Origin: an uncultured Eubacteriales bacterium
GTDB taxonomy: Bacteria > Bacillota > Clostridia > Christensenellales > Aristaeellaceae
Direction: 5' to 3'
Length of the DNA stretch: 64,000 bases
NCBI GenBank assembly: GCA_944349855.1
Contig: CALVNS010000003.1
Coordinates: forward strand, 1-64,000
In this document: positions 9,621 through 49,301 of the stretch, piece by piece
How positions within the stretch are numbered: the first letter of the stretch is position 1
Layout of the letters: each line of letters starts with the position of its first letter
Notes under the pieces: generated by a model
Database searches by the model: none
The model's input: the letters and a program-made list of their open reading frames with translations, nothing else
What the model was told of the DNA's origin: nothing
Program-made: the position numbers and the translations under genes

Positions 9621-10208
9621 ATGGAATTTAAGTGGCTAAACAAAAGCTTCATCAAGCAGACGCAGGACAGGATCGAGATCATGGCGCCGGCCCAGACCGA
9701 TTTCTTCTGCGGCAACAGCGACGCGTGTCAGGAGGGGATTCTTCCAGAGTCTCTTTGCAACGCCCCCTATTACTATACTGAAGTGGAGGGAGACTTTGTC
9801 CTCAAGGTGAAAGTCTCTCATGCCTTTCAAGACACTTACGATTCCGCATCTGTAATGATCATGAAAGACCAGAACTGCTGGGCGAAATGCTGTTTTGAAC
9901 TTACTGACTTTGGCACGCATGCCGCAGTAAGCGTGGTGACAAAGGGAGATTCCGACGATGCAAACGGATGCAATCTGCAGGGCAACACCGCTTGGTTGCA
10001 GGTTTGTCGGGTCGGCAACAACTTCGGGTTTCACTACTCTGTGGATGGCATTCATTTTTATATGATGCGATATTTTCATCTCCCTGCAAATCCCGTCATC
10101 AAAGTGGGGCTCTTAGCGCAGGCGCCGGTGGGCAACGGCGGCATCCGAGTGTATGAACATCTCAGCATTGAGAAAAAAACCGTGAAAAACATTCGGGCGG
10201 GCAAGTGA
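9621..10208 (+). CDS. DUF1349 domain protein (concanavalin-like fold)
   Basis: 195 residues, about the usual length of DUF1349 proteins, a jelly-roll family related to yeast Ree1. Family hallmarks visible are GDFVLKVKVSHAF, the SASVMIMKDQNCWAKCCFEL strand pair, and the late GLLAQAPVGNG segment. There is no signal peptide, so it is cytoplasmic. AAAGGAG precedes ATG 9621. The MFS gene follows after one base, so they are translationally linked. Carbohydrate binding is inferred from fold and context. Confidence 0.82.
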   Translation: MEFKWLNKSFIKQTQDRIEIMAPAQTDFFCGNSDACQEGILPESLCNAPYYYTEVEGDFVLKVKVSHAFQDTYDSASVMIMKDQNCWAKCCFELTDFGTHAAVSVVTKGDSDDANGCNLQGNTAWLQVCRVGNNFGFHYSVDGIHFYMMRYFHLPANPVIKVGLLAQAPVGNGGIRVYEHLSIEKKTVKNIRAGK

Positions 10209-10209
10209 T

Positions 10210-11406
10210 ATGACCGAAAATCGAAAGTATCAAAAAACATTGTTGGCCTGCTATCTGGGATTTGTCACGCAGGCCATCTCCGCCAACTTTGCGCCCCTTC
10301 TGTTTTTGACCTTTCAAGACATCTACGAGATCTCGTTGGACAAGATCGCCCTGATCCCCGTTGTGTTTTATCTGACCCAGCTGCTGATCGACCTTGGGGC
10401 AACCAAGTTTGCGGACAAAATCGGTTACCGCATCTGCGTGGTGATCTCTCAGGTGCTTTCGGCAGTGGGGCTTGTGCTGCTGACGGTTCTCCCGGAAATG
10501 CTCCCCGTTCCCTTTCTGGGGATTCTCATGGCCGTGGTATTTTACGCCATCGGCAGCGGTCTTGTGGAAGTGCTGGTTAGCCCCATTGTAGAAGCCTGCC
10601 CCTTTGAAAACAAGGATGGCAGAATGAGTTTACTGCACTCATTCTACTGTTGGGGTGCGGTAGGCGTGATCTTAGGTTCCACGCTCTTTTTTGCGGTATT
10701 TGGCACCAAAAATTGGAAAATACTCGCGCTCATCTGGGCGCTGGTGCCGCTGGTGAATGTCTTTCAGTTTCTCACCTGCCCCATAGAGAGACTGGTAGAA
10801 GACGGCGAAGGTTTGCCCCTTCGCAAGTTGCTCCGACTGCCGCTGCTGTGGATGATGATTTTACTCATGATTTGCTCCGGCGCATCCGAAGCGACCATGG
10901 CACAGTGGGCGTCCGCCTTTACAGAGTCGGCCCTGGGCGTGTCTAAAACGGTTGGGGATTTGGCCGGCCCCTGTCTGTTTGCCGTCTTCATGGGGATCTC
11001 TCGCATATTGTACGGAAAGATGAGCGCGAAACTGAACCTGTCTAAGACCATGCTGCTGAGTGGCTTGCTGTGCGTAGCATGCTATTTACTGGCCTCCCTT
11101 TCCCCCTTGCCGGTTCTTGGCCTGGCTGGGTGCGCCCTTTGCGGCTTCAGCGTGGGCATTATGTGGCCGGGTACCATCAGCCTTTCCTCCCAAAAGTGTC
11201 CAAAGGGGGGTACCGCTATGTTCGCTTTTTTGGCGTTAGCAGGGGATTTCGGCGGTACCGTCAGCCCGGCCATGGTGGGCAGCTTTTCGGAAATGGCTGG
11301 CGGCAATCTGAAAATGGGTCTGCTGGCCGCCACAATCTTTCCGATCCTTTTGGTGGCGGGTTTGCTTGCTTTGAACCGAAGGACAAATTGCGCCATTCAA
11401 AAGTGA
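10210..11406 (+). CDS. MFS transporter, probable sugar or glycoside permease
   Basis: 398 residues with about 12 hydrophobic segments in two halves. The cytoplasmic loop after the second helix reads TKFADKIGYR, the MFS motif A position. A large central loop (about 195-215) separates the halves. The overall pattern matches the FucP/GlpT-distant sugar MFS group. It starts one base after the DUF1349 stop. With AraC and DUF1349 it forms a regulated uptake module; the substrate is not determinable. GC content near 50% is well below the surrounding chromosome, suggesting transfer. Confidence 0.85.
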   Translation: MTENRKYQKTLLACYLGFVTQAISANFAPLLFLTFQDIYEISLDKIALIPVVFYLTQLLIDLGATKFADKIGYRICVVISQVLSAVGLVLLTVLPEMLPVPFLGILMAVVFYAIGSGLVEVLVSPIVEACPFENKDGRMSLLHSFYCWGAVGVILGSTLFFAVFGTKNWKILALIWALVPLVNVFQFLTCPIERLVEDGEGLPLRKLLRLPLLWMMILLMICSGASEATMAQWASAFTESALGVSKTVGDLAGPCLFAVFMGISRILYGKMSAKLNLSKTMLLSGLLCVACYLLASLSPLPVLGLAGCALCGFSVGIMWPGTISLSSQKCPKGGTAMFAFLALAGDFGGTVSPAMVGSFSEMAGGNLKMGLLAATIFPILLVAGLLALNRRTNCAIQK

Positions 11407-41098: not shown

Positions 41099-41671
41099 TC
41101 AGACGATCAGGTCGTCCAGGGAGCGCTTGGGCACGTAGTGCACGCCCTGCGCGTCGCGCCAGTAGCGCGTGGAGCCGTCCGCGGGCAGTCCGGTGAGGCG
41201 CACGTCCTCCACGGGCCTGCCCAGCGCGACGACCAGCTCGACCGCGTAGCGCGCCGGGTCCAGCCCCAGCGCCGCCAGCAGCTCCTCGCGGCGCACGCTG
41301 CCCAGCATGCATCCGCCCAGGCCCCGCTCGACCGCGCCCAGCAGCATCGTCTGCGCGGCGATGGCCGCGTCGGGCCGCTTGCCGCTGCCGCAGTCCAGGT
41401 CGCACAGCACGACCACATACGCCGCCGGCCGCTCGCCCTGCGCCGGGCCCGGCCAGTCGGGCAGCGCCGCCGCCCAGCCCAGCGTCGCAAACACGCGCGC
41501 GCACATCTCCGGCTCCGTCACCGGCCGGAAGCGCAGCGGCTGCGCGTTGCCCGCCGTGGGCGCCAGGCGCGCCAGCTCGATCAGCTCGCGCAGCGTCTGC
41601 TCCGTCACGCGCGCCGACTCGTCAAATCGCCGGTAGCTGCGGCTCTTCGTCGCCAGTTCCAGCATCGTCAT
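41099..41671 (-). CDS. Nitroreductase family protein
   Basis: 190 residues. SRSYRRFDE (about 10-18) and LARLAPTAGNAQPLRF near 33-48 form the FMN site. ERGLGGCMLGSVRREELL near 110-127 is the conserved dimer block. It is the smaller, SagB/NfnB-like type and unlike the 253-residue enzyme at 38.5 kb. ATG 41671 follows GAGGAGG. It lies 30 bp after aroK and appears to be the last gene of the aromatic operon. It may use an aromatic-derived substrate, but nothing shows this directly. Confidence 0.85.
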   Translation of the reverse strand: MTMLELATKSRSYRRFDESARVTEQTLRELIELARLAPTAGNAQPLRFRPVTEPEMCARVFATLGWAAALPDWPGPAQGERPAAYVVVLCDLDCGSGKRPDAAIAAQTMLLGAVERGLGGCMLGSVRREELLAALGLDPARYAVELVVALGRPVEDVRLTGLPADGSTRYWRDAQGVHYVPKRSLDDLIV

Positions 41672-41701: not shown

Positions 41702-42214
41702 TCACAGCGCCCCGTACAGGCGCAGCGTCTCCACCAGGCGGCGCGTCGCATCAAACGGGCTGCCGCCGTTGTCAAAGGCGATGTCGCACGCCTCGTGATA
41801 GCGCGCGCTGCGCGCGGCGTGCAGCGTGCGCATGCGCTCTTCCTTGTCCCCGGCCAGGTTGGGCCGCTCCTCCTGGCTGACGTCGTGCAGCATGTCCGCA
41901 AGGCTGCGGTCCAGCAGCACGACGACGCCGCTTTTTCGCATCAGCGCGACGTTCTCCTCGCGCAGCACCGCGCCGCCGCCCGTGGCCACGACGCCGGGCC
42001 GGCCCGCGGCGATCTCGCGCAGCGCGCGCGTCTCCCAATCCCGAAAGCCCGCCTCGCCCTCCTGCGCAAAGATCTGCGGGATCGTGCGTCCGGCCGCCCG
42101 CTCCACGTACTCGTCCGCATCGACGAACGGGCAGCCCAGCCGCTGGGCGAGCATCCGGCCGATCGTCGTCTTGCCCGAGCCCATCATGCCCGTCAGATAG
42201 ATGTGCTTACGCAT
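41702..42214 (-). CDS. aroK: Shikimate kinase
   Basis: 170 residues. Walker A is GMMGSGKTTIGR at 9-20. The shikimate-binding DADEYVE (about 32-38) and GGGAVLREEN near 80-89 are present, and the lid holds RPNLAGD near 118-124. It phosphorylates shikimate with ATP. It overlaps pheA by eight bases within the Phe/Tyr operon. Confidence 0.95.
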   Translation of the reverse strand: MRKHIYLTGMMGSGKTTIGRMLAQRLGCPFVDADEYVERAAGRTIPQIFAQEGEAGFRDWETRALREIAAGRPGVVATGGGAVLREENVALMRKSGVVVLLDRSLADMLHDVSQEERPNLAGDKEERMRTLHAARSARYHEACDIAFDNGGSPFDATRRLVETLRLYGAL

Positions 42215-43316
42215 GGCGCCCCCTCGCCGAGCGGTATACGCCCAGCACCCGGCACTCCACGCAGTCCGCCGACAGCGCCTCGCGCAGCACGTCCATGTGC
42301 CGCTCGCTCACGCTGCCCTCCACGTCCACATAGAAGCGGTACTCCCAGTTCATGCCCGGAATGGGCCGCGACTCGATGTGCGTCAGGTTCATGCCCAGCG
42401 CCACGAAGCACGCCAGCGCGCGGTGCAGCGTGCCGCGCTCATGGCGCAGCGTGAACGTGAGCGTCGCCTTGTCCGCATCCGGCGCGAACGGCTCGCGCGC
42501 GCCCGCGACGATCGCAAAGCGCGTGGTGTTCCCATCGAACGTATGGATGTCCGCCGCGAGCACCTCCAGCCCATACCGCTGCGCTGCCAGGCGGCTGGCG
42601 ATGGCCGCGCTGTGCACGTCGCCCTCCTCGCGCACGCGCTGGGCGCTGCCCGCCGTGTTGTACTGCGCCGCGCGCTCCCAGGACGGATGCGCGTCCAGGA
42701 ACGCCGCGCACTGCATCAGCGCCTGCGCGTGCGAGTACACGCGCCGCACATCCTCCAGGCGCGCGCCCGGCAGGCCCAGCAGGCAGTGGCGCACCTGCAC
42801 CATCTGCTCGCCGACGATGCGCAGGCTGTAGCGGCCCAGCAGATCGTACACATCGTACACCGACCCGGCGGACGAGTTCTCCAGCGGCGCGACGCCATAG
42901 CGCGCACGGCCCGACGCCACCGCCTCGAACACCTGCTCAAACCCGCGGCAGGCGATGCGCTCGCGCGCCTCGCCGAAGTAGGCGATCAGCGCCTCCTCGG
43001 CAAACGCGCCCGGCACGCCCGAATAGGCCGCGCCCTGCGGCCCCGCCTGCAGCATCAGCGCCTGCTGGCGCGCGCGGCTGAGCGCCATGATCTGCCGGTA
43101 CAGCGCGCGCACGTCCTCCCCATTGTCCGCCTGCGCCAGCGCGGCGCGCGCATCCAGCACCTGTTCCTCCCGCGCCGCGTCCAGCACCGGCAGGCCGCGC
43201 TCCAGCTTATAGGCCGCCACCTGCTCGCTCACGCCCATGCGCGTCTCAAACAGGCGCACCATGTCCCGATCGATTGCGTCGATCTGCGCCCGAAGCGCCT
43301 GCAAGTCCTCGCTCAT
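42207..43316 (-). CDS. pheA: Bifunctional chorismate mutase/prephenate dehydratase (P-protein)
   Basis: 369 residues in three domains. AroQ chorismate mutase covers about 1-85 (LRAQIDAIDRDMVRLFETR). Prephenate dehydratase covers about 95-275, with PLENSSAGSVYDVYDLL and NTTRFAIVA. The ACT domain covers about 285-360, with HERGTLHRALACF and GMNLTHIESRPI, the Phe-binding ESRP motif. Feedback inhibition by Phe is therefore expected. ATG 43316 overlaps the aroC stop and has GGAGGAG upstream. Confidence 0.95.
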   Translation of the reverse strand: MSEDLQALRAQIDAIDRDMVRLFETRMGVSEQVAAYKLERGLPVLDAAREEQVLDARAALAQADNGEDVRALYRQIMALSRARQQALMLQAGPQGAAYSGVPGAFAEEALIAYFGEARERIACRGFEQVFEAVASGRARYGVAPLENSSAGSVYDVYDLLGRYSLRIVGEQMVQVRHCLLGLPGARLEDVRRVYSHAQALMQCAAFLDAHPSWERAAQYNTAGSAQRVREEGDVHSAAIASRLAAQRYGLEVLAADIHTFDGNTTRFAIVAGAREPFAPDADKATLTFTLRHERGTLHRALACFVALGMNLTHIESRPIPGMNWEYRFYVDVEGSVSERHMDVLREALSADCVECRVLGVYRSARGRHA

Positions 43317-44404
43317 CCCCGCGTCTCCTCCTCCAGCAAAAGGTCCGTCAGCGCCAGCAGCATCGCGCTCTCCACGACCGGCACTGCCCGCGGCACGATG
43401 CACGGGTCGTGCCGGCCGCGGATCTCAATCTGCGCGTCCGCCATGCACGAGACGTCCACCGTGCGCTGCGGCTGCGCGATCGACGGCGTCGGCTTGACCG
43501 CCACGCGGCAGACCACCGGCATGCCGTTGGTGATGCCGCCCGTCACGCCGCCGTTGTGGTTCGTCTCGCACGTCACGCGGCCATCCTGCACGCGCATCGC
43601 GTCGTTGGCCCCGCTGCCGCGCATTGCGCACAGCCCGAAGCCGTCGCCGAACGCCACGCCCTTGACCGCCGGGATCGAGAAGAGCAGGTGCGCGAGCGTC
43701 GACTCCAGCGAGTCGAAGAACGGCGCGCCCAGGCCCGCCGGCACGCCCACCGCCGCGACCTCGATCGAGCCGCCCACGCTGTCGCCCGCCAGGCGCGCCT
43801 CCTCCACGCGCGCGCGCATCGCCGCCTCGCGCGCGGGATCCAGCAGCGCAAAGCGCGCATCCCGCAGCGCCCGCAGCGTCTGCGCGTCCACGCCCACGGG
43901 ATCCATCGGCGCGTCCTCGACCCCCGCGATGGAGGCGATGTGCGCGCCGACCTCGATGCCCCGCGCCGCCAGCGCCTGCCGGCACAGCGCGCCCGCGAAC
44001 ACCAACGGCGCCGTCAGCCGTCCGGAGAAGTGCCCGCCGCCGCGCGGGTCGTTCATGCCGCGGTACTTGACGTAGCCCGCGTAGTCCGCGTGGCCCGGGC
44101 GCATCAGCCGCTGCATCGCCTCGTAGTCGCCGGAGCGCACGTTCGTATTCTCGATCAGGCCGCACAGCGGCGCGCCGGTCGTATGCCCGCGGTACAGCCC
44201 CGACACGATGCGCACGCGGTCGGCCTCGCGCCGCGCCGTCGCCGTCGGGTCCTGGCCTGGCGCGCGGCGCGCCATGTCGCGCGCGACCGCCTCCTCATCG
44301 ACCGAAAGGCCGATGGGCAGGCCGTCCACGACCACGCCGATCGCCGGCCCGTGCGACTCGCCGAAGATCGTCAGTTGCAGGTTATTCCCCCACGTCGAGC
44401 GCAT
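43313..44404 (-). CDS. aroC: Chorismate synthase
   Basis: 363 residues. The signatures GESHGPAIGVVVDGLP (about 14-29), RPGHADYAGYVKY near 100-112, GGGHFSGRLTAPLVFAGAL near 121-139 and RHDPC near 340 are complete. It makes chorismate from EPSP and needs reduced FMN. It overlaps aroA by 23 bases. Confidence 0.97.
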   Translation of the reverse strand: MRSTWGNNLQLTIFGESHGPAIGVVVDGLPIGLSVDEEAVARDMARRAPGQDPTATARREADRVRIVSGLYRGHTTGAPLCGLIENTNVRSGDYEAMQRLMRPGHADYAGYVKYRGMNDPRGGGHFSGRLTAPLVFAGALCRQALAARGIEVGAHIASIAGVEDAPMDPVGVDAQTLRALRDARFALLDPAREAAMRARVEEARLAGDSVGGSIEVAAVGVPAGLGAPFFDSLESTLAHLLFSIPAVKGVAFGDGFGLCAMRGSGANDAMRVQDGRVTCETNHNGGVTGGITNGMPVVCRVAVKPTPSIAQPQRTVDVSCMADAQIEIRGRHDPCIVPRAVPVVESAMLLALTDLLLEEETRG

Positions 44405-45710
44405 GCGTCATTCCTCCCAGCGATGCGTATTCCCGATAGAATGCGGGCGCGCTCTTGCGCACCGACTCCGCGCCCGAGAGCGCCGTCCCGCCCTCGCACG
44501 ACGCGGCCGCCACGCACAGCGCCATGGCGATGCGGTGGTCGTTCCACGCGTCCACCGCCGCCCCGTGCAGGCGCGCGCCGCCCTGCACCGTCAGCCCGTC
44601 CGGCGTCTCGCGCACGTCCGCGCCCATCCGGCACAGCCCCTCGCGCATCGCCGCCAGCCGGTCGCACTCCTTGATGCGCAGCCGCCCCGCGTTCACGATC
44701 CGCGTGACGCCCTGCGCGGCGCACGCGGCCACGCACAGCGCCGGCACCAGGTCCGGGATCTGCGCGGCGTCGATCGTCGTGCCCGTCAGGCGCGACGGGT
44801 ACGCGCACAGCGCCGGGCCGTCCGGACTGTCCGCCCAGCGGATGTCCGCGCCCATCGCGCGCAGCACCTGCACGACCGCGCGGTCGCCCTGCGTGGAATC
44901 GGGCAGCAGGCCCGTCAGGCGCACGCCCTGCGGCGCGCCGGCCGTCGCGCCCGCCACCAGGTAAAACGCCGCGTGCGACCAGTCGCCCTCGACCTGCACG
45001 CGCCCCGGCGAGCGATAGCGCTGCCCGCCCGGCACGAAGAGCGTGCGCTCATCCCGCCACGCGGAGCGCACGCCAAAGCGCGCGAGCATCTCCCGCGTGA
45101 GCGCCACATACGCGCCCGACTCCAGCGGCGTGGTCAGCGTCAGCGTCGAGTCCTGCGCGCACAGCGGCAGCGCGTACAGCAGTCCCGTCACGAACTGGCT
45201 GGACACGTCGCCGCGCAGGCGCATCCGACCGCCCTGCAGCCGTCCGTCCAGCGTCAGGCTGCCCGGGCCGTCTTCCCAGCGCGCGCCCATCGCGGCAAAC
45301 AGCGCGCGGTATACGTCCTGCGGGCGCTCCATCAGCCGCCCATGGCCGATAAAGCGCACCGGCCCGCGCCCGTCCAGCGCCAGCGGCATGAAGAAGCGCA
45401 GCGTCGAGCCCGACTCGCCGCAGTCGGCCTCGCGCAGCCCAGGCGAGGCCGGAATGCCGCCGCCGCGCAGGCGCGCGCGCACAAATCCCTCCTGCGCGCC
45501 GGAGAGCGGCTCCAGCGCGCAGTCCGCCAGCAGGCCCAGCGCGCGGGCGCAGCGCAGCGTGGCCTCGACATCGGCCGACAGCTGCAGCGGCGCGACCTCG
45601 CACGGCTCGGGCGCGAGCGCGGCGGCCAGCACCGCGCGGTGCGAGGCGGACTTGCTGGGCATCACGCGCAGCGTGCCGCCCAGCGCAGCGGGGCGAATGA
45701 TGCGGATCAT
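44382..45710 (-). CDS. aroA: 3-phosphoshikimate 1-carboxyvinyltransferase (EPSP synthase)
   Basis: 442 residues. PSKSASHRAVLAAAL (about 18-32) supplies the shikimate-3-phosphate lysine and serine. ADCGESGSTLRFFMPLA near 94-110 is the PEP loop, with ESGST in place of the NAGTA of E. coli; this position influences glyphosate tolerance. RIKECDRLAAMREGL near 352-366 and WNDHRIAMAL near 395-404 complete the site. ATG 45710 was chosen because the longer frame runs into aroB. It is the sixth step of the shikimate pathway. Confidence 0.95.
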   Translation of the reverse strand: MIRIIRPAALGGTLRVMPSKSASHRAVLAAALAPEPCEVAPLQLSADVEATLRCARALGLLADCALEPLSGAQEGFVRARLRGGGIPASPGLREADCGESGSTLRFFMPLALDGRGPVRFIGHGRLMERPQDVYRALFAAMGARWEDGPGSLTLDGRLQGGRMRLRGDVSSQFVTGLLYALPLCAQDSTLTLTTPLESGAYVALTREMLARFGVRSAWRDERTLFVPGGQRYRSPGRVQVEGDWSHAAFYLVAGATAGAPQGVRLTGLLPDSTQGDRAVVQVLRAMGADIRWADSPDGPALCAYPSRLTGTTIDAAQIPDLVPALCVAACAAQGVTRIVNAGRLRIKECDRLAAMREGLCRMGADVRETPDGLTVQGGARLHGAAVDAWNDHRIAMALCVAAASCEGGTALSGAESVRKSAPAFYREYASLGGMTHALDVGE

Positions 45711-45744: not shown

Positions 45745-46803
45745 TCAGAGCAGGGCCTCCAGCGCGGCCTGATCGACCTCGTGCGTCGCCGCGCGGCCGA
45801 TGCGCTCGAGCACGACGACCTGCACGCGCCCGCCGGACGCCTTCTTGTCCAGGCGCATGGCGCGCGCGAGCGCCTCGCGCGGCAGGTTCGGGGCCTGCGT
45901 GGGCAGCCCATAGGCGCGCAGCACGCGCTCGATGCGCGCGGCCGTGCCCGGCTCCGTCACGCCCCAGCCCTCGCCCCAGCGCGCCGCCGCGACCATGCCC
46001 ATGCACACGCCCTCGCCGTGCAGCACCTGGCCGTAGCCCGCGGCGTTCTCCACCGCGTGGCCCAGCGTATGCCCGAAGTTCAGCTGCGCGCGCACGCCCT
46101 TATCCAGCGGATCGCGGCGCACGTAGTCCGCCTTGAGCGCACAGCAGCGTGCGATCACCCCGTCGATGTGCGCCCACAGCGCCGCCCGGCCGCCCGCCTG
46201 CTCGATGCGCGCAAAGAGCGCCTCGTCGGCGATGCAGCCGTACTTGATCACCTCGCCCAGGCCCGCGCCAACCTGGCGCGCGTCCAGCGTATCCAGCGTA
46301 TCCACGTCGATGAGCACGCGCTCGGGCTGATAGAACGCGCCGACCAGGTTCTTGCCGCGCGGCAGGTTCACGGCCGTCTTGCCGCCCACGGACGAATCCA
46401 CCTGCGAGAGCAGCGTCGTCGGGACCTGGATCAGCCGCACGCCGCGCAGAAAGCTCGCCGCCGCATAGCCCGCCAGGTCGCCCACGACGCCGCCGCCCAG
46501 CGCGACGACGAAGTCCCGCCGCGACAGGCCCGCATCCAAAAACGCGTCGTACAGCGCGGCCAGCTGCGCAAGGCTCTTGCTCTCCTCGCCCGCCGGCACC
46601 GTGTACAGCGACGCCCGCGCGCCCGCCAGCCCCAGCGCGCGCAGCATCGCCTGCCCATAGAGCGGGGCCGTGTTCGTATCGGCCACGACGAGCGCGCGCC
46701 GCCCCGCGCACATCGAAAGCGCCTGCTCTGCCTGCGCAAGCAGCCCGCGCCCGATCAGGATGTCATAGCTGCCGTTCTGCGCCTCAACGCGTACGGTTTG
46801 CAC
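45745..46803 (-). CDS. aroB: 3-dehydroquinate synthase
   Basis: 352 residues. ALGGGVVGDLAGYAAASFLRG near 101-121 is the NAD+-binding block, and VPTTLLSQVDSSVGGKTAVNL near 126-146 is the catalytic block. Zn2+ ligands are Glu in GLGEVIKYG near 179, His in NFGHTLGHAVE near 242 and a later His. GTG 46803 follows AAGGAGG nine bases upstream. It overlaps tyrA by 20 bases. It converts DAHP to 3-dehydroquinate. Confidence 0.96.
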   Translation of the reverse strand: MQTVRVEAQNGSYDILIGRGLLAQAEQALSMCAGRRALVVADTNTAPLYGQAMLRALGLAGARASLYTVPAGEESKSLAQLAALYDAFLDAGLSRRDFVVALGGGVVGDLAGYAAASFLRGVRLIQVPTTLLSQVDSSVGGKTAVNLPRGKNLVGAFYQPERVLIDVDTLDTLDARQVGAGLGEVIKYGCIADEALFARIEQAGGRAALWAHIDGVIARCCALKADYVRRDPLDKGVRAQLNFGHTLGHAVENAAGYGQVLHGEGVCMGMVAAARWGEGWGVTEPGTAARIERVLRAYGLPTQAPNLPREALARAMRLDKKASGGRVQVVVLERIGRAATHEVDQAALEALL

Positions 46804-47635
46804 GGTTGTACGCCTCCTTTCTTGAAGAGGCCGCCGCCAGGCGCGCGCGCAGCGCCTCGCGCTCCCCGCCGCGCAGCAGCGCCACGTAGTCCTCCAGCTT
46901 GCCGATCAGCTCCTCCGTCTCCTGCGCCAGCGCGTCCCGGTTTTGCCAGAACAGCTCCGTCCACAGGTCCGGGTCCAGCGCCGCCACGCGCGTCGTGCCG
47001 CGGAATGACCCGCCCTCGAACCCGTAGCTGTCCGCCAGCGCGTCCTGCTCGCAGATCGCCACCGCCAGCACGTGCATCATCTGGCTGGTGTAGGCCACGC
47101 GCAGGTCATGCGTGAGCGGATCCGTGCGGATGACATCCGCGCAGCCCATGGCGCGGGCCATGCGCTCCACGCGCGCGACCGCCTGCGCGTCCTCGCCGCC
47201 CGAGAGCACCAGGATGTAGTGCGCGCCCACGAACAGCGAGCCCGTCGCGTTTTCGTAGCCGCCGTGCTCCTTGCCCGCCATCGGGTGCCCGCCCACGAAG
47301 TGCGCGCCCGGCGTCAGGTACGCGCGCGCGGCCTCAAACACCGGCCGCTTCACGCCGCACACATCCGTCACCAGCGCGCCCGGTCGCACGCGCGCGCCAT
47401 GCGCGCGCAGGAAGTCCACGCATCCCTGCGGATGCAGGCACAGCACGATCACGTCCGCGCGCTCGACCGGCGCCTGCGCGGCATCCGCATAGGCCGCCTC
47501 GACCACGCCCTCGCACAGCGCCGCCGCGCGCGTGTCCGGGTCCCTGTCCACGCACAGGGCCCGCATGCCCTCGAACCCGCGCAGCGCCTTGGCCATGCTG
47601 CCGCCGATCAGCCCCAGGCCGACGAAGAGGATCAC
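46784..47635 (-). CDS. tyrA: Prephenate dehydrogenase
   Basis: 283 residues. The Rossmann motif VGLGLIGGSMAKAL is at 5-18. HPMAGKEHGGYENA near 122-135 is the prephenate-binding block, and LTHDLRVAYTSQMMHVLA near 178-195 holds conserved residues. There is no C-terminal ACT domain, so feedback control is probably at transcription. GTG 47635 overlaps the aroF stop by four bases (GTGA), which suggests translational coupling. Confidence 0.93.
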   Translation of the reverse strand: MILFVGLGLIGGSMAKALRGFEGMRALCVDRDPDTRAAALCEGVVEAAYADAAQAPVERADVIVLCLHPQGCVDFLRAHGARVRPGALVTDVCGVKRPVFEAARAYLTPGAHFVGGHPMAGKEHGGYENATGSLFVGAHYILVLSGGEDAQAVARVERMARAMGCADVIRTDPLTHDLRVAYTSQMMHVLAVAICEQDALADSYGFEGGSFRGTTRVAALDPDLWTELFWQNRDALAQETEELIGKLEDYVALLRGGEREALRARLAAASSRKEAYNRANRTR

Positions 47636-48645
47636 AGCGTGCGCTCCACGATCGGGGCCAAGGCGTGAATCTTGGCCACCAGCTGCGCAAACTGCGGCGG
47701 CGTCAGCGACTGCGCGCCGTCGCACAGCGCGCGCGCCGGGTCGTTGTGCACCTCGATGATCAGGCCGTCCGCGCCCGCGGCGATCGCCGCCAGCGACATG
47801 CGCTCCACCATCCACGCCTGGCCCGTCGCGTGGCTGGGATCGACCAGCACCGGCAGGTGCGACAGGCGCTTGACCGCCAGCACCGCCGACAGATCCAGGG
47901 TATTGCGCGTATACGTCTCAAACGTGTGGATGCCCCGCTCGCACAGGATCACGTTCTCATTGCCCGCGGCCATGATGTACTCCGCGCTCATGAGCCACTC
48001 CTCGATCGTGGCGGACAGGCCGCGCTTGAGCAGCACGGGCTTGCGCGTCTTGCCCAGCTCGCGCAGCAGGTCGAAGTTTTGCATGTTGCGCGCGCCCACC
48101 TGGATGACGTCCACGCGCCGGTCGAACTCCTCCACCAGCGCGGGGCTCATGATCTCCGTGACGATGGGCAGGCCGCTCTCCGCGCGCGCCTCCTCCAGCA
48201 TCGCCAGTCCCTCCAGCTTCAGCCCCTGGAATGCGTAGGGCGACGTGCGCGGCTTGAACGCCCCGCCCCGCAGCATCGACGCGCCGCTGGCCCGCACCGC
48301 CAGCGCGATGCCCGTCACCTGGTCGATCGACTCCACCGAGCACGGGCCCGCCACCAGCGCCAGCTGCCGACCGCCCACGCGCACGCCGCTGCAGTCGATG
48401 ACGCTCTGCTCCGGGTGGAACTTGCGGTTCGCCTTCTTGAACGGCTCCGACACCGGCATGACGCGCTCCACGCCCTCGCGCATCAGGAAATCCGTCGGGT
48501 CCAGGCTCGCCACGTCCCCGATCACGCCCAGCACCGTGCAGTCCACGCCGCTGTTGCGCTGCACCTGCATGCCGCGCCCTTCCAGCTCCGAAATCAGCGA
48601 GTCGATGCTCTCCTCGCGCGCCTTGGGCTTCATGATGATGATCAT
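47632..48645 (-). CDS. aroF: DAHP synthase (3-deoxy-7-phosphoheptulonate synthase)
   Basis: 337 residues, AroAbeta type with an N-terminal ferredoxin-like regulatory domain (about 1-70), as in Thermotoga. The barrel contains LVAGPCSVES near 96-105, RGGAFKPRTSPYAFQG near 126-141, QVGARNMQNFDLL near 178-190 and PVLVDPSHATG near 266-276. The regulatory domain suggests Tyr or Phe inhibition. ATG 48645 follows AGAGAGGGTG. It is the first structural gene of the operon, downstream of the leader peptide and attenuator. Confidence 0.95.
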   Translation of the reverse strand: MIIIMKPKAREESIDSLISELEGRGMQVQRNSGVDCTVLGVIGDVASLDPTDFLMREGVERVMPVSEPFKKANRKFHPEQSVIDCSGVRVGGRQLALVAGPCSVESIDQVTGIALAVRASGASMLRGGAFKPRTSPYAFQGLKLEGLAMLEEARAESGLPIVTEIMSPALVEEFDRRVDVIQVGARNMQNFDLLRELGKTRKPVLLKRGLSATIEEWLMSAEYIMAAGNENVILCERGIHTFETYTRNTLDLSAVLAVKRLSHLPVLVDPSHATGQAWMVERMSLAAIAAGADGLIIEVHNDPARALCDGAQSLTPPQFAQLVAKIHALAPIVERTL

Positions 48646-48702
48646 ATCCGCACCCTCTCTTCGTTTCCTTCGCTACGGCATGCGCCGCGCCCTTCGATCA
48701 CG

Positions 48703-48740
48703 AAAAAAGAGGCCCCCGCCGCGCTGCGGCGAAAGCCCCT
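48703..48740 (-). terminator. Attenuator terminator of the aromatic operon
   Basis: CGCCGC and GCGGCG pair around AGC, extended by G-T and G-C pairs to about 14 bp, and run into six T on the minus strand. It lies between the leader peptide and aroF. Confidence 0.85.
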
Positions 48741-48775
48741 GCATTCCGTGCGTATACATGCCCGGAACGGCTGCT

Positions 48776-48871
48776 TTACGCGCTGCGGCCGCTTTTTTGT
48801 GCGCCGAAAAAGCCGTAGCCAAAATAGCTATAGCTGTTAAATCGCACAAAATTGCGGCGCATGCCGTGCAT
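48776..48871 (-). CDS. Aromatic leader peptide (31 codons), Phe/Tyr attenuator
   Basis: ATG 48871 follows AGGAGG with an 8-base spacer. The peptide contains the block FVRFNSYSYFGYGFF at residues 8-22: five Phe and three Tyr codons in fifteen. It then ends after a short basic tail at TAA 48776-48778. A promoter lies 30 bp upstream and a strong terminator 36 bp downstream. Ribosome stalling at Phe or Tyr codons should favour an antiterminator and expression of aroF-tyrA-aroB-aroA-aroC-pheA-aroK. The layout matches the pheA/trp attenuation logic. It was too short for routine calling. Confidence 0.87.
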   Translation of the reverse strand: MHGMRRNFVRFNSYSYFGYGFFGAQKSGRSA

Positions 48872-48900
48872 CGTCCGTTCCTCCTGCATGTATTGGCATT

Positions 48901-48929
48901 AGTATAGCACCCGCGCGCGCCGATGGCAA
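48901..48929 (-). promoter_or_regulatory. Promoter of the aromatic amino-acid operon
   Basis: Minus-strand TTGCCA (48924-48929) and TATACT (48901-48906) are 17 bp apart. Confidence 0.85.
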
Positions 48930-48968: not shown

Positions 48969-48997
48969 TTGACAGATGCGCCGCCGGGCTGTATAAT
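48969..48997 (+). promoter_or_regulatory. Promoter of the T-box and aspS2-gatCAB operon
   Basis: TTGACA (48969-48974) and TATAAT (48992-48997), both perfect consensus, are 17 bp apart. Confidence 0.95.
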
Positions 48998-49003
48998 GCC
49001 CAC

Positions 49004-49301
49004 AACCTCATAGCAACGGCGTCGAAGGAGACGAGTACCTCGCGCATTTCATCAGGGAGGCCGGGCCATGGACTGAGAGCCCGGCTGAAATCCCCGCCCG
49101 GGAAAGAACGCTCCTGAGCCGGCCTGCCGACCGCGCAAGCATAGGCATGTCCGTTTCCCGCGTTAAGGGTTCACGAGGCCGCCCGGCCTCATTAAGTGGG
49201 CGATGACGCATGTTGGTGCCGCTCTCGCCAAATTGGGTGGTACCGCGGGGTATTTGTATTCCCGTCCCGAGTTGATGTGTTTCAACTCGGGATTTTTGTT
49301 T
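49004..49301 (+). ncRNA. T-box riboswitch, specifier GAAC (Asn, possibly also Glu)
   Basis: The T-box AATTGGGTGGTACCGCGG (49231-49248) is diagnostic. Stem I shows the AGTA region (49035-49038), an apical GAGAGCC segment and the 3' CTCCTGAG that follows the specifier loop. The loop reads GGAAAGAACG. AAC at 49107-49109 fits tRNA-Asn, and an overlapping GAA at 49106-49108 fits tRNA-Glu. A terminator with 11-bp arms (49265-49275, 49282-49292) and T5 ends the leader. Uncharged tRNA should stabilise the antiterminator and turn on aspS2-gatCAB. Confidence 0.93.
49265..49301 (+). terminator. T-box-controlled terminator
   Basis: TCCCGAGTTGA pairs with TCAACTCGGGA around a 6-nt loop, then TTTTTGTTTTT. 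Confidence 0.93.

Follow-up and report, generated by a model that had tools for sequence, protein, structure and literature searches.

The window, by which we mean the whole stretch of 64,000 nucleotides analysed here, carries on its minus strand a run of eight genes that begins with aroF, the gene for DAHP synthase, and ends with a gene of the nitroreductase family (Table 1). The Pfam assignments agree with the identities proposed in the preliminary description of this DNA for all of them, from the DAHP synthase to aroK and the nitroreductase, and the solved relatives of the aroF product include 4grs, 1rzm and 3pg9. Since the genes overlap or sit at most 34 nt apart (with three of the starts chosen by us), judging from their spacing they are likely to form one transcript. 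The order aroF-tyrA-aroB-aroA-aroC is found in 8 of 10 relatives' stretches, and pheA in 7 of those 8; the exceptions are L226, which reads aroF-aroA-tyrA, and L223, where none of these genes adjoins aroF in the stretch examined. As for the final gene of the run, a nitroreductase-family gene stands in the same place only in G001, which is of the same genus, among these ten stretches, some of the other nine being cut by contig or stretch ends.

Table 1. Features of the aromatic operon and its leader, with the second DAHP synthase of the same genome
Feature	Position	Strand	Basis or remark
Promoter TTGCCA-17-TATACT, TG ahead of the -10 box	48901..48929	-	by sequence
AGGAGG Shine-Dalgarno (48885-48880), spacer and leader start codon	48869..48885	-	
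Leader peptide ORF MHGMRRNFVRFNSYSYFGYGFFGAQKSGRSA, 5 Phe and 3 Tyr	48776..48871	-	conservation, chance test
Hairpin 1:2, AATTTTGTGCG (48853-48843) with CGCACAAAA (48803-48795)	48795..48853	-	
Segment 2, GCGCGTAAAGC, overlapping the leader stop codon; antiterminator 5' strand	48773..48783	-	
Helper hairpin within the antiterminator, CGTTCCG (48769-48763) with CGGAATG (48748-48742)	48742..48769	-	
Segment 3, AGGGGCTTTCGCCGC, terminator 5' arm and antiterminator 3' strand	48726..48740	-	
Segment 4, terminator 3' arm and U-run	48701..48722	-	
aroF, DAHP synthase with N-terminal ferredoxin-like domain	47632..48645	-	Pfam
tyrA, prephenate dehydrogenase	46784..47626	-	Pfam; start chosen inside longer ORF
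aroB, 3-dehydroquinate synthase	45745..46803	-	Pfam
aroA, EPSP synthase	44382..45710	-	Pfam; start chosen inside longer ORF
aroC, chorismate synthase	43313..44404	-	Pfam
pheA, chorismate mutase / prephenate dehydratase	42207..43322	-	Pfam; start chosen inside longer ORF
aroK, shikimate kinase	41702..42214	-	Pfam
Nitroreductase-family protein, final gene of the run	41099..41671	-	Pfam
Second DAHP synthase, same genome	L219 (G000:C20), about 10171-11202	-	leader in L112

In front of aroF, the promoter, the AGGAGG and the 31-codon ORF of the preliminary description are all present on the minus strand where it had placed them, and the -10 box TATACT recurs in L002-L005 and L113. The region between promoter and aroF thus holds an apparently translatable short ORF with its own ribosome-binding site, as an attenuator of the leader-peptide type should. 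The ORF runs from an ATG at 48871 to a TAA stop at 48778-48776, and its translation bears out the five Phe (residues 8, 11, 17, 21 and 22) and three Tyr (residues 14, 16 and 19) that had been counted within residues 8-22. The leader takes the minority codons TTT and TAT for 6 of these 8, whereas the operon uses them in 40 of 120 cases (Fisher p 0.025). Most of the control codons fall inside hairpin 1:2, which in the folding model would be the protector form adopted in the absence of a ribosome on the leader. Moreover, an intrinsic terminator does lie between the leader ORF and aroF, followed by a U-run as had been described, while its stem (48740-48708, with a 3-nt loop) has 15 pairs instead of the 14 first given.

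From the sequence and the modelled folds we read this leader, with considerable confidence, as a transcription attenuator of the classical ribosome-mediated type that senses Phe and Tyr; attenuation is very probably the mechanism, and the mixed sensing of both amino acids, which is drawn from codon statistics, is likely. A ribosome would translate the 31-codon ORF while RNA polymerase transcribes the leader. When charged tRNA-Phe and tRNA-Tyr are both plentiful, the ribosome would arrive at the stop codon and cover segment 2, segment 3 would pair with segment 4, and the resulting terminator would keep the operon off. When either tRNA is uncharged, we infer that the ribosome would stall within codons 8-22 and leave segment 2 free to pair with segment 3, whereupon the polymerase would read through aroF-tyrA-aroB-aroA-aroC-pheA-aroK-nitroreductase as a single transcript responsive to both amino acids. 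Without any ribosome, segment 2 would be held upstream and the terminator would form. The same Phe/Tyr attenuator had been proposed in the preliminary description, and it finds support in the conserved aromatic codons, the terminator and the folding, which are taken up in turn below.

Conservation was surveyed by a simple rule, a leader being a short ORF with at least 6 Phe or Tyr codons in 12 within the 300 nt before a DAHP synthase gene. Across the order of the window's genome, such a leader is present in 77 of 109 upstreams and absent by this rule from the other 32; shuffles give 22 of 2180 and the reverse strands 7 of 109. The 109 include the second copy of the window's genome, and L027 and L044, with upstreams shorter than 150 nt, were dropped. 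Among the named and class-wide loci a leader is found in 59 of 104, these being the best 80 of 593 loci from one scan of public genomes together with 26 class-wide loci, of which, once L169 and L207 are removed, 104 have enough upstream. The survey is an incomplete one, made of the best-listed loci plus 59 further places picked by hand. Carriers include Clostridium ganghwense (L125), Papillibacter cinnamivorans (L120), Bittarella massiliensis (L136) and Angelakisella massiliensis (L185), and in the densest example (L140) as many as ten Phe/Tyr codons occur in 12. Of the records that bear a genus name, Candidatus Ventricola gallistercoris (L114) comes closest, at 83% by aroF (the records of the window's own genome being perhaps excluded), and a clostridial bin, L113, reaches 84% by aroF; the leaders of both have 5 in 12, below the threshold. 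Between L001 and L003, aligned by eye, Phe and Tyr are swapped for each other at some positions. A lack of aromatic codons in relatives had been named beforehand as one result that would overturn the attenuator; in fact a cluster of end-product codons, as expected of an attenuator, is conserved across the order and also elsewhere in Clostridia. In many Clostridia, some of them gut species, entry into aromatic biosynthesis is apparently governed by a simple peptide that reads two amino acids. In nine sister-genus leaders the third codon positions are no more variable than the others, which gives no coding signature there. After the control codons the wording GKxCLG or TGCLRCA recurs in L063, L087, L094, L097, L112, L288 and others, perhaps reflecting an RNA-level constraint from the antiterminator strand.

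Leaders with related function are known elsewhere. In E. coli, pheL-pheA, pheST and trpL combine control codons with an alternation of antiterminator and terminator. For Corynebacterium glutamicum, an aroR leader before aroF was reportedly described by Neshat et al. in 2014. The three E. coli leaders, which are named in the accessible part of PMC11802643, differ from the present one in serving one amino acid each, and the same text places E. coli aroF itself under TyrR/TrpR repression. AroR (PMC11802643; also PMC4046766, each as far as the accessible text goes) is a close likeness, with a peptide that has both Phe and Tyr codons, precedes the gene of a DAHP synthase and acts by ribosome-mediated attenuation; however, it comes from an actinobacterium, contains only Phe-Tyr-Phe and is reported to respond to Phe limitation and not to Tyr, whereas the clostridial leaders have up to ten Phe/Tyr codons in 12 and often head a pathway operon. 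Another likeness is the uORFC-13-1 motif. According to the accessible portion of PMC8632094, this uORF with a Phe-coding U-run and a terminator behind it is found exclusively before aroF; its 24 representatives come from Acholeplasma and from environmental sequences, and a minimum of one Phe codon is noted. Because the leader of Acholeplasma oculi (L186) reads SYYYFY, with 5 in 12 just below our threshold, this motif may represent the margin of a wider group to which the present leaders also belong. A Phe/Tyr leader before aroF, which had been put forward as notable, thus has precedents in these two systems.

Firmicutes, too, have leader-peptide attenuation that serves other amino acids and genes. 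As given in the accessible parts of the respective papers, His leaders stand before hisS/hisZ in bacilli (a 2010 survey, PMC2965389), Staphylococcus aureus has a Leu-rich attenuator peptide (PMC5794164), and attenuation of the ribosome-mediated kind occurs in Listeria (PMC5864092). According to the same part of the 2010 survey, its authors knew of no leader outside Proteobacteria and Actinobacteria, ermC aside, and the corresponding portion of a 2005 Actinobacteria study (PMC1262725) describes the regions upstream of Phe or Tyr operons as showing no conserved structure. Among the matches listed in the open-access literature, which is without the survey of Lopatovskaya et al. 2010 (cited in PMC4833913), no report of a Phe/Tyr leader in Clostridia was found. 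As far as these searches show, the spread in Clostridia and the division between paralogues described below are new, in a kind of system that is already known.

To which amino acids the leaders are addressed can be judged by testing the 20 amino acids singly, without preselection, over 213 upstreams, that is, the order set (109) and the named and class-wide set (104). Two are far ahead, Tyr (t 15.6) and Phe (t 15.0), followed by Ala (t 6.3) and Met (t 5.9); as the sets overlap, the 213 are not all distinct, and four or more of the named loci seem to share their genomes with loci that carry G handles (L114/L234, L118/L037, L149/L061 and L153/L107). Trp as a third sensed amino acid in general gains no support here (t -2.6). 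Trp codons are mixed with Phe and Tyr in the leaders of L115, L117, L125, L205 and L206, for example RFFYFWSWGYFF, so that in these Clostridium and Pelosinus records and two other genomes a single leader might sense every one of the three aromatic amino acids.

It might still be that the attenuator answers to Phe alone and the Tyr codons are passengers. AroR offers the model, its Phe-Tyr-Phe leader being reported, in the accessible text of PMC11802643, as responsive to Phe limitation and not to Tyr availability. In the window's leader Phe (5) outnumbers Tyr (3), and the genome's other DAHP synthase, with none of the other aro genes of the window's operon nearby, has a Tyr-rich leader of its own (MTYASRYAYVYLYCFGSTGCLRCA, with five Tyr, one Phe and a terminator-like hairpin). 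Against it, the Tyr codons are as strongly enriched as the Phe codons over the 213 upstreams, at least two of each occur in 66 of the 68 order leaders outside the list of paired copies treated next (mean Phe fraction 0.50), and some second-copy leaders contain Tyr without Phe in the counted stretch (L259, L263 and L266). On this balance we consider a sensor of Phe alone unlikely, though of all the alternatives it deserves the most attention, and the reading with both amino acids is kept in what follows.

The second copy leads to a comparison within genomes. For 41 two-copy genomes picked from the search lists, with a leader now taken as at least 5 Phe plus Tyr in 14, both leaders were recognised in 18, and in 18 of 18 the copy closer to the window's aroF has the more Phe-rich leader (sign p 7.6e-6, a value that ignores kinship); with a cut of 4 this holds for 23 of 26, three being contrary. 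The nearer copy is defined by its closeness to the window's aroF, and its operon was examined in few genomes. The 18 pairs are spread over six genera. Four of these (g1, g32, g25 and g33) contribute 14 pairs with a clear shift, the second copies of g32 having mixed instead of Tyr-only leaders; in the other four pairs, three of g65 and one of g11, the shift is slight, and in g65 the second-copy ORFs are Phe-rich too and perhaps not leaders at all. Counted by locus, the Phe fraction is 0.52 where there is a single copy (leader in 72 of 85 loci), 0.70 for first copies (36 of 48) and 0.34 for second copies (23 of 35), and some of the single and double calls may be wrong since they are read from draft genomes. 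The differences persist in genus means, where they are modest (p 0.041 and 0.032), and of eight genera with both kinds, seven lean alike, three of them slightly, and g56 leans the opposite way.

In a tree of 93 DAHP synthases, the Tyr-rich second copies are split over at least two groups that stand apart, and one of these lies within a clade of good support that also contains single-copy relatives with mixed leaders. Judged from these sequences, the division between the copies may be taken as a lead with real but limited independence. A broader proposal, to which we give somewhat less than even confidence, is that Clostridia keep an either-or sensor of Phe and Tyr before DAHP synthase whose codon mix tracks the copy number, mixed where there is one copy, and with two copies shifted to Phe at one and Tyr-rich, sometimes without Phe, at the other. 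In E. coli the isozymes are divided by allostery and repressors; if the proposal is true, the division here would be written in the leader codons, and more than once. If the codon mix does follow isozyme and end product, such leaders would provide a readable record of regulation dividing between two copies.

Behind the leader a terminator is found in 72 of 77 order upstreams versus 19 of 231 shuffles; the corresponding counts are 45 of 60 for the named and class-wide set and 10 of 14 for the family and paralogue sets. This recount used 320 instead of 300 nt and left out L203 and L250, where the gene start lies off the match, which is why it has 103 rows and 60 leaders against the 104 and 59 above. 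The same counts bear on whether the leader could act on translation, with ribosome movement exposing or hiding the aroF start, or protecting the mRNA. Translational control by a leader ORF is known elsewhere, and a purine-rich possible ribosome-binding region of aroF follows shortly past the terminator; but a terminator with U-run between leader and gene, in such a proportion of loci, is directly explained by transcription control, and we regard action on translation as very unlikely compared with attenuation of transcription.

As for the alternative pairing, folding was computed at equilibrium, which ignores kinetics, for an RNA that stops where the terminator 5' arm ends, with the leading edge of the ribosome 12 nt past the A site. 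In the window the helix between segments 2 and 3 has a probability of 0.27-0.87 with the A site at the Phe/Tyr codons and 0.52 at codon 27, and falls to 0.01 or less from codon 28 onward. Without a ribosome this pairing is 0.00, segment 2 is held upstream at 0.57, and segment 3 is largely free, being paired upstream at 0.13. The helix forms also with the ribosome at codons 1-7, before the Phe/Tyr cluster, and hence the fold tells where release ends, near the stop, and not which codons are specific. In L003, from a second species of the genus, the leader is much changed and segments 2 and 3 are kept with one base different; there the helix reaches 0.19-0.85 at the Phe/Tyr codons and 0.00 from codon 32, and one pair of the helper hairpin is changed on both sides in a compensatory way, as read by eye. 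Without a ribosome its segment 3 is paired upstream at 0.75, unlike that of the window. The 195-nt leader of the window as a whole folds with a z of -6.9 against its own shuffles.

Over the group, the stretch behind the control codons forms a better duplex with the terminator 5' arm than expected from shuffles (p ≤ 0.05) in 39 of 72 order leaders (40 of 73 in an earlier run) and in 65 of 127 over all sets, with a mean z of -1.96. A ddG version of the shuffle test gives a weaker trend (13 of 73 at ≤ 0.05, mean z -0.77, p 3e-5), in our view because ddG charges for the structures that the pairing replaces. The sample came from the 77 leaders, reduced to 74 by three without a fitting terminator and to 73 by one with a distant terminator. 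Controls in which arms were swapped between species are weak, with 5 of 73 (ddG) and 15 of 73 (duplex) at ≤ 0.05. The window's own antiterminator duplex is no better than its GC-rich shuffles (z +0.4 and +0.6; ddG percentile 0.35). Since the group shows the duplex trend and yet the pairing in the window does not exceed its shuffles, the modelled antiterminator may be called supported for the group and plausible only for this member. The mutually exclusive antiterminator that had been anticipated is thus seen by folding and in the group trend, but at the window itself it does not rise above shuffles.

It is highly improbable that a T-box, TRAP or another known RNA element is in control and the ORF incidental. 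T-boxes are common in this phylum, and one does lie on the opposite strand of the same intergenic stretch; however, on the minus-strand leader Rfam returned no matching family, with ctRNA_p42d (E 3.8, 15.8 bits versus a cut-off of 50) as the only hit and no T-box at E ≤ 5, so that a T-box on the leader, for which stem I with a specifier and GGGUGGUACCGCG would be the marks, was rejected. A TRAP site consists of about 11 (G/U)AG repeats, and the 154-nt leader with its 2 GAG/TAG triplets is far from one. The conservation of the leader ORF also speaks against an incidental role. As to the further statement that clostridial aromatic operons more often go with T-boxes or TRAP-like control, T-boxes do not seem to be what usually governs aroF in these loci. 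Among 20 loci, chosen from 77 with fewer than 6 Phe/Tyr codons in 12, one has a T-box at the Rfam cut-off, a strict one below which even the plus-strand T-box of the window scores. This one is at 192-446 of L090, before its DAHP synthase, with 108.8 bits. T-boxes, expected before DAHP synthase, are therefore rarely seen there in the loci scanned.

Finally, a chance ORF before an ordinary terminator is rejected as next to impossible, for although about 1% of shuffled upstreams reach 6 Phe/Tyr in 12 codons, the best count of the present leader, 7 in 12, was reached by none of 4000 dinucleotide shuffles of the 300-nt upstream, and leaders are conserved in the order and beyond. Over both strands of the window, 5 of 2548 overlapping 300-nt stretches reach 7, and all 5 overlap the leader ORF.

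The plus-strand T-box next to the attenuator merits a description of its own. It extends over 49013-49272 with 82.1 bits (E 5.3e-18, Rfam cut-off 93), contains GGGUGGUACCGCG, and has AAC (Asn) as its specifier by our reading of the alignment. It is preceded by a perfect TTGACA-17-TATAAT promoter at 48969-48997 and followed by genes for aspartate-tRNA(Asn) ligase and gatC. One divergent intergenic stretch therefore holds a T-box on one side and the leader-peptide attenuator on the other.
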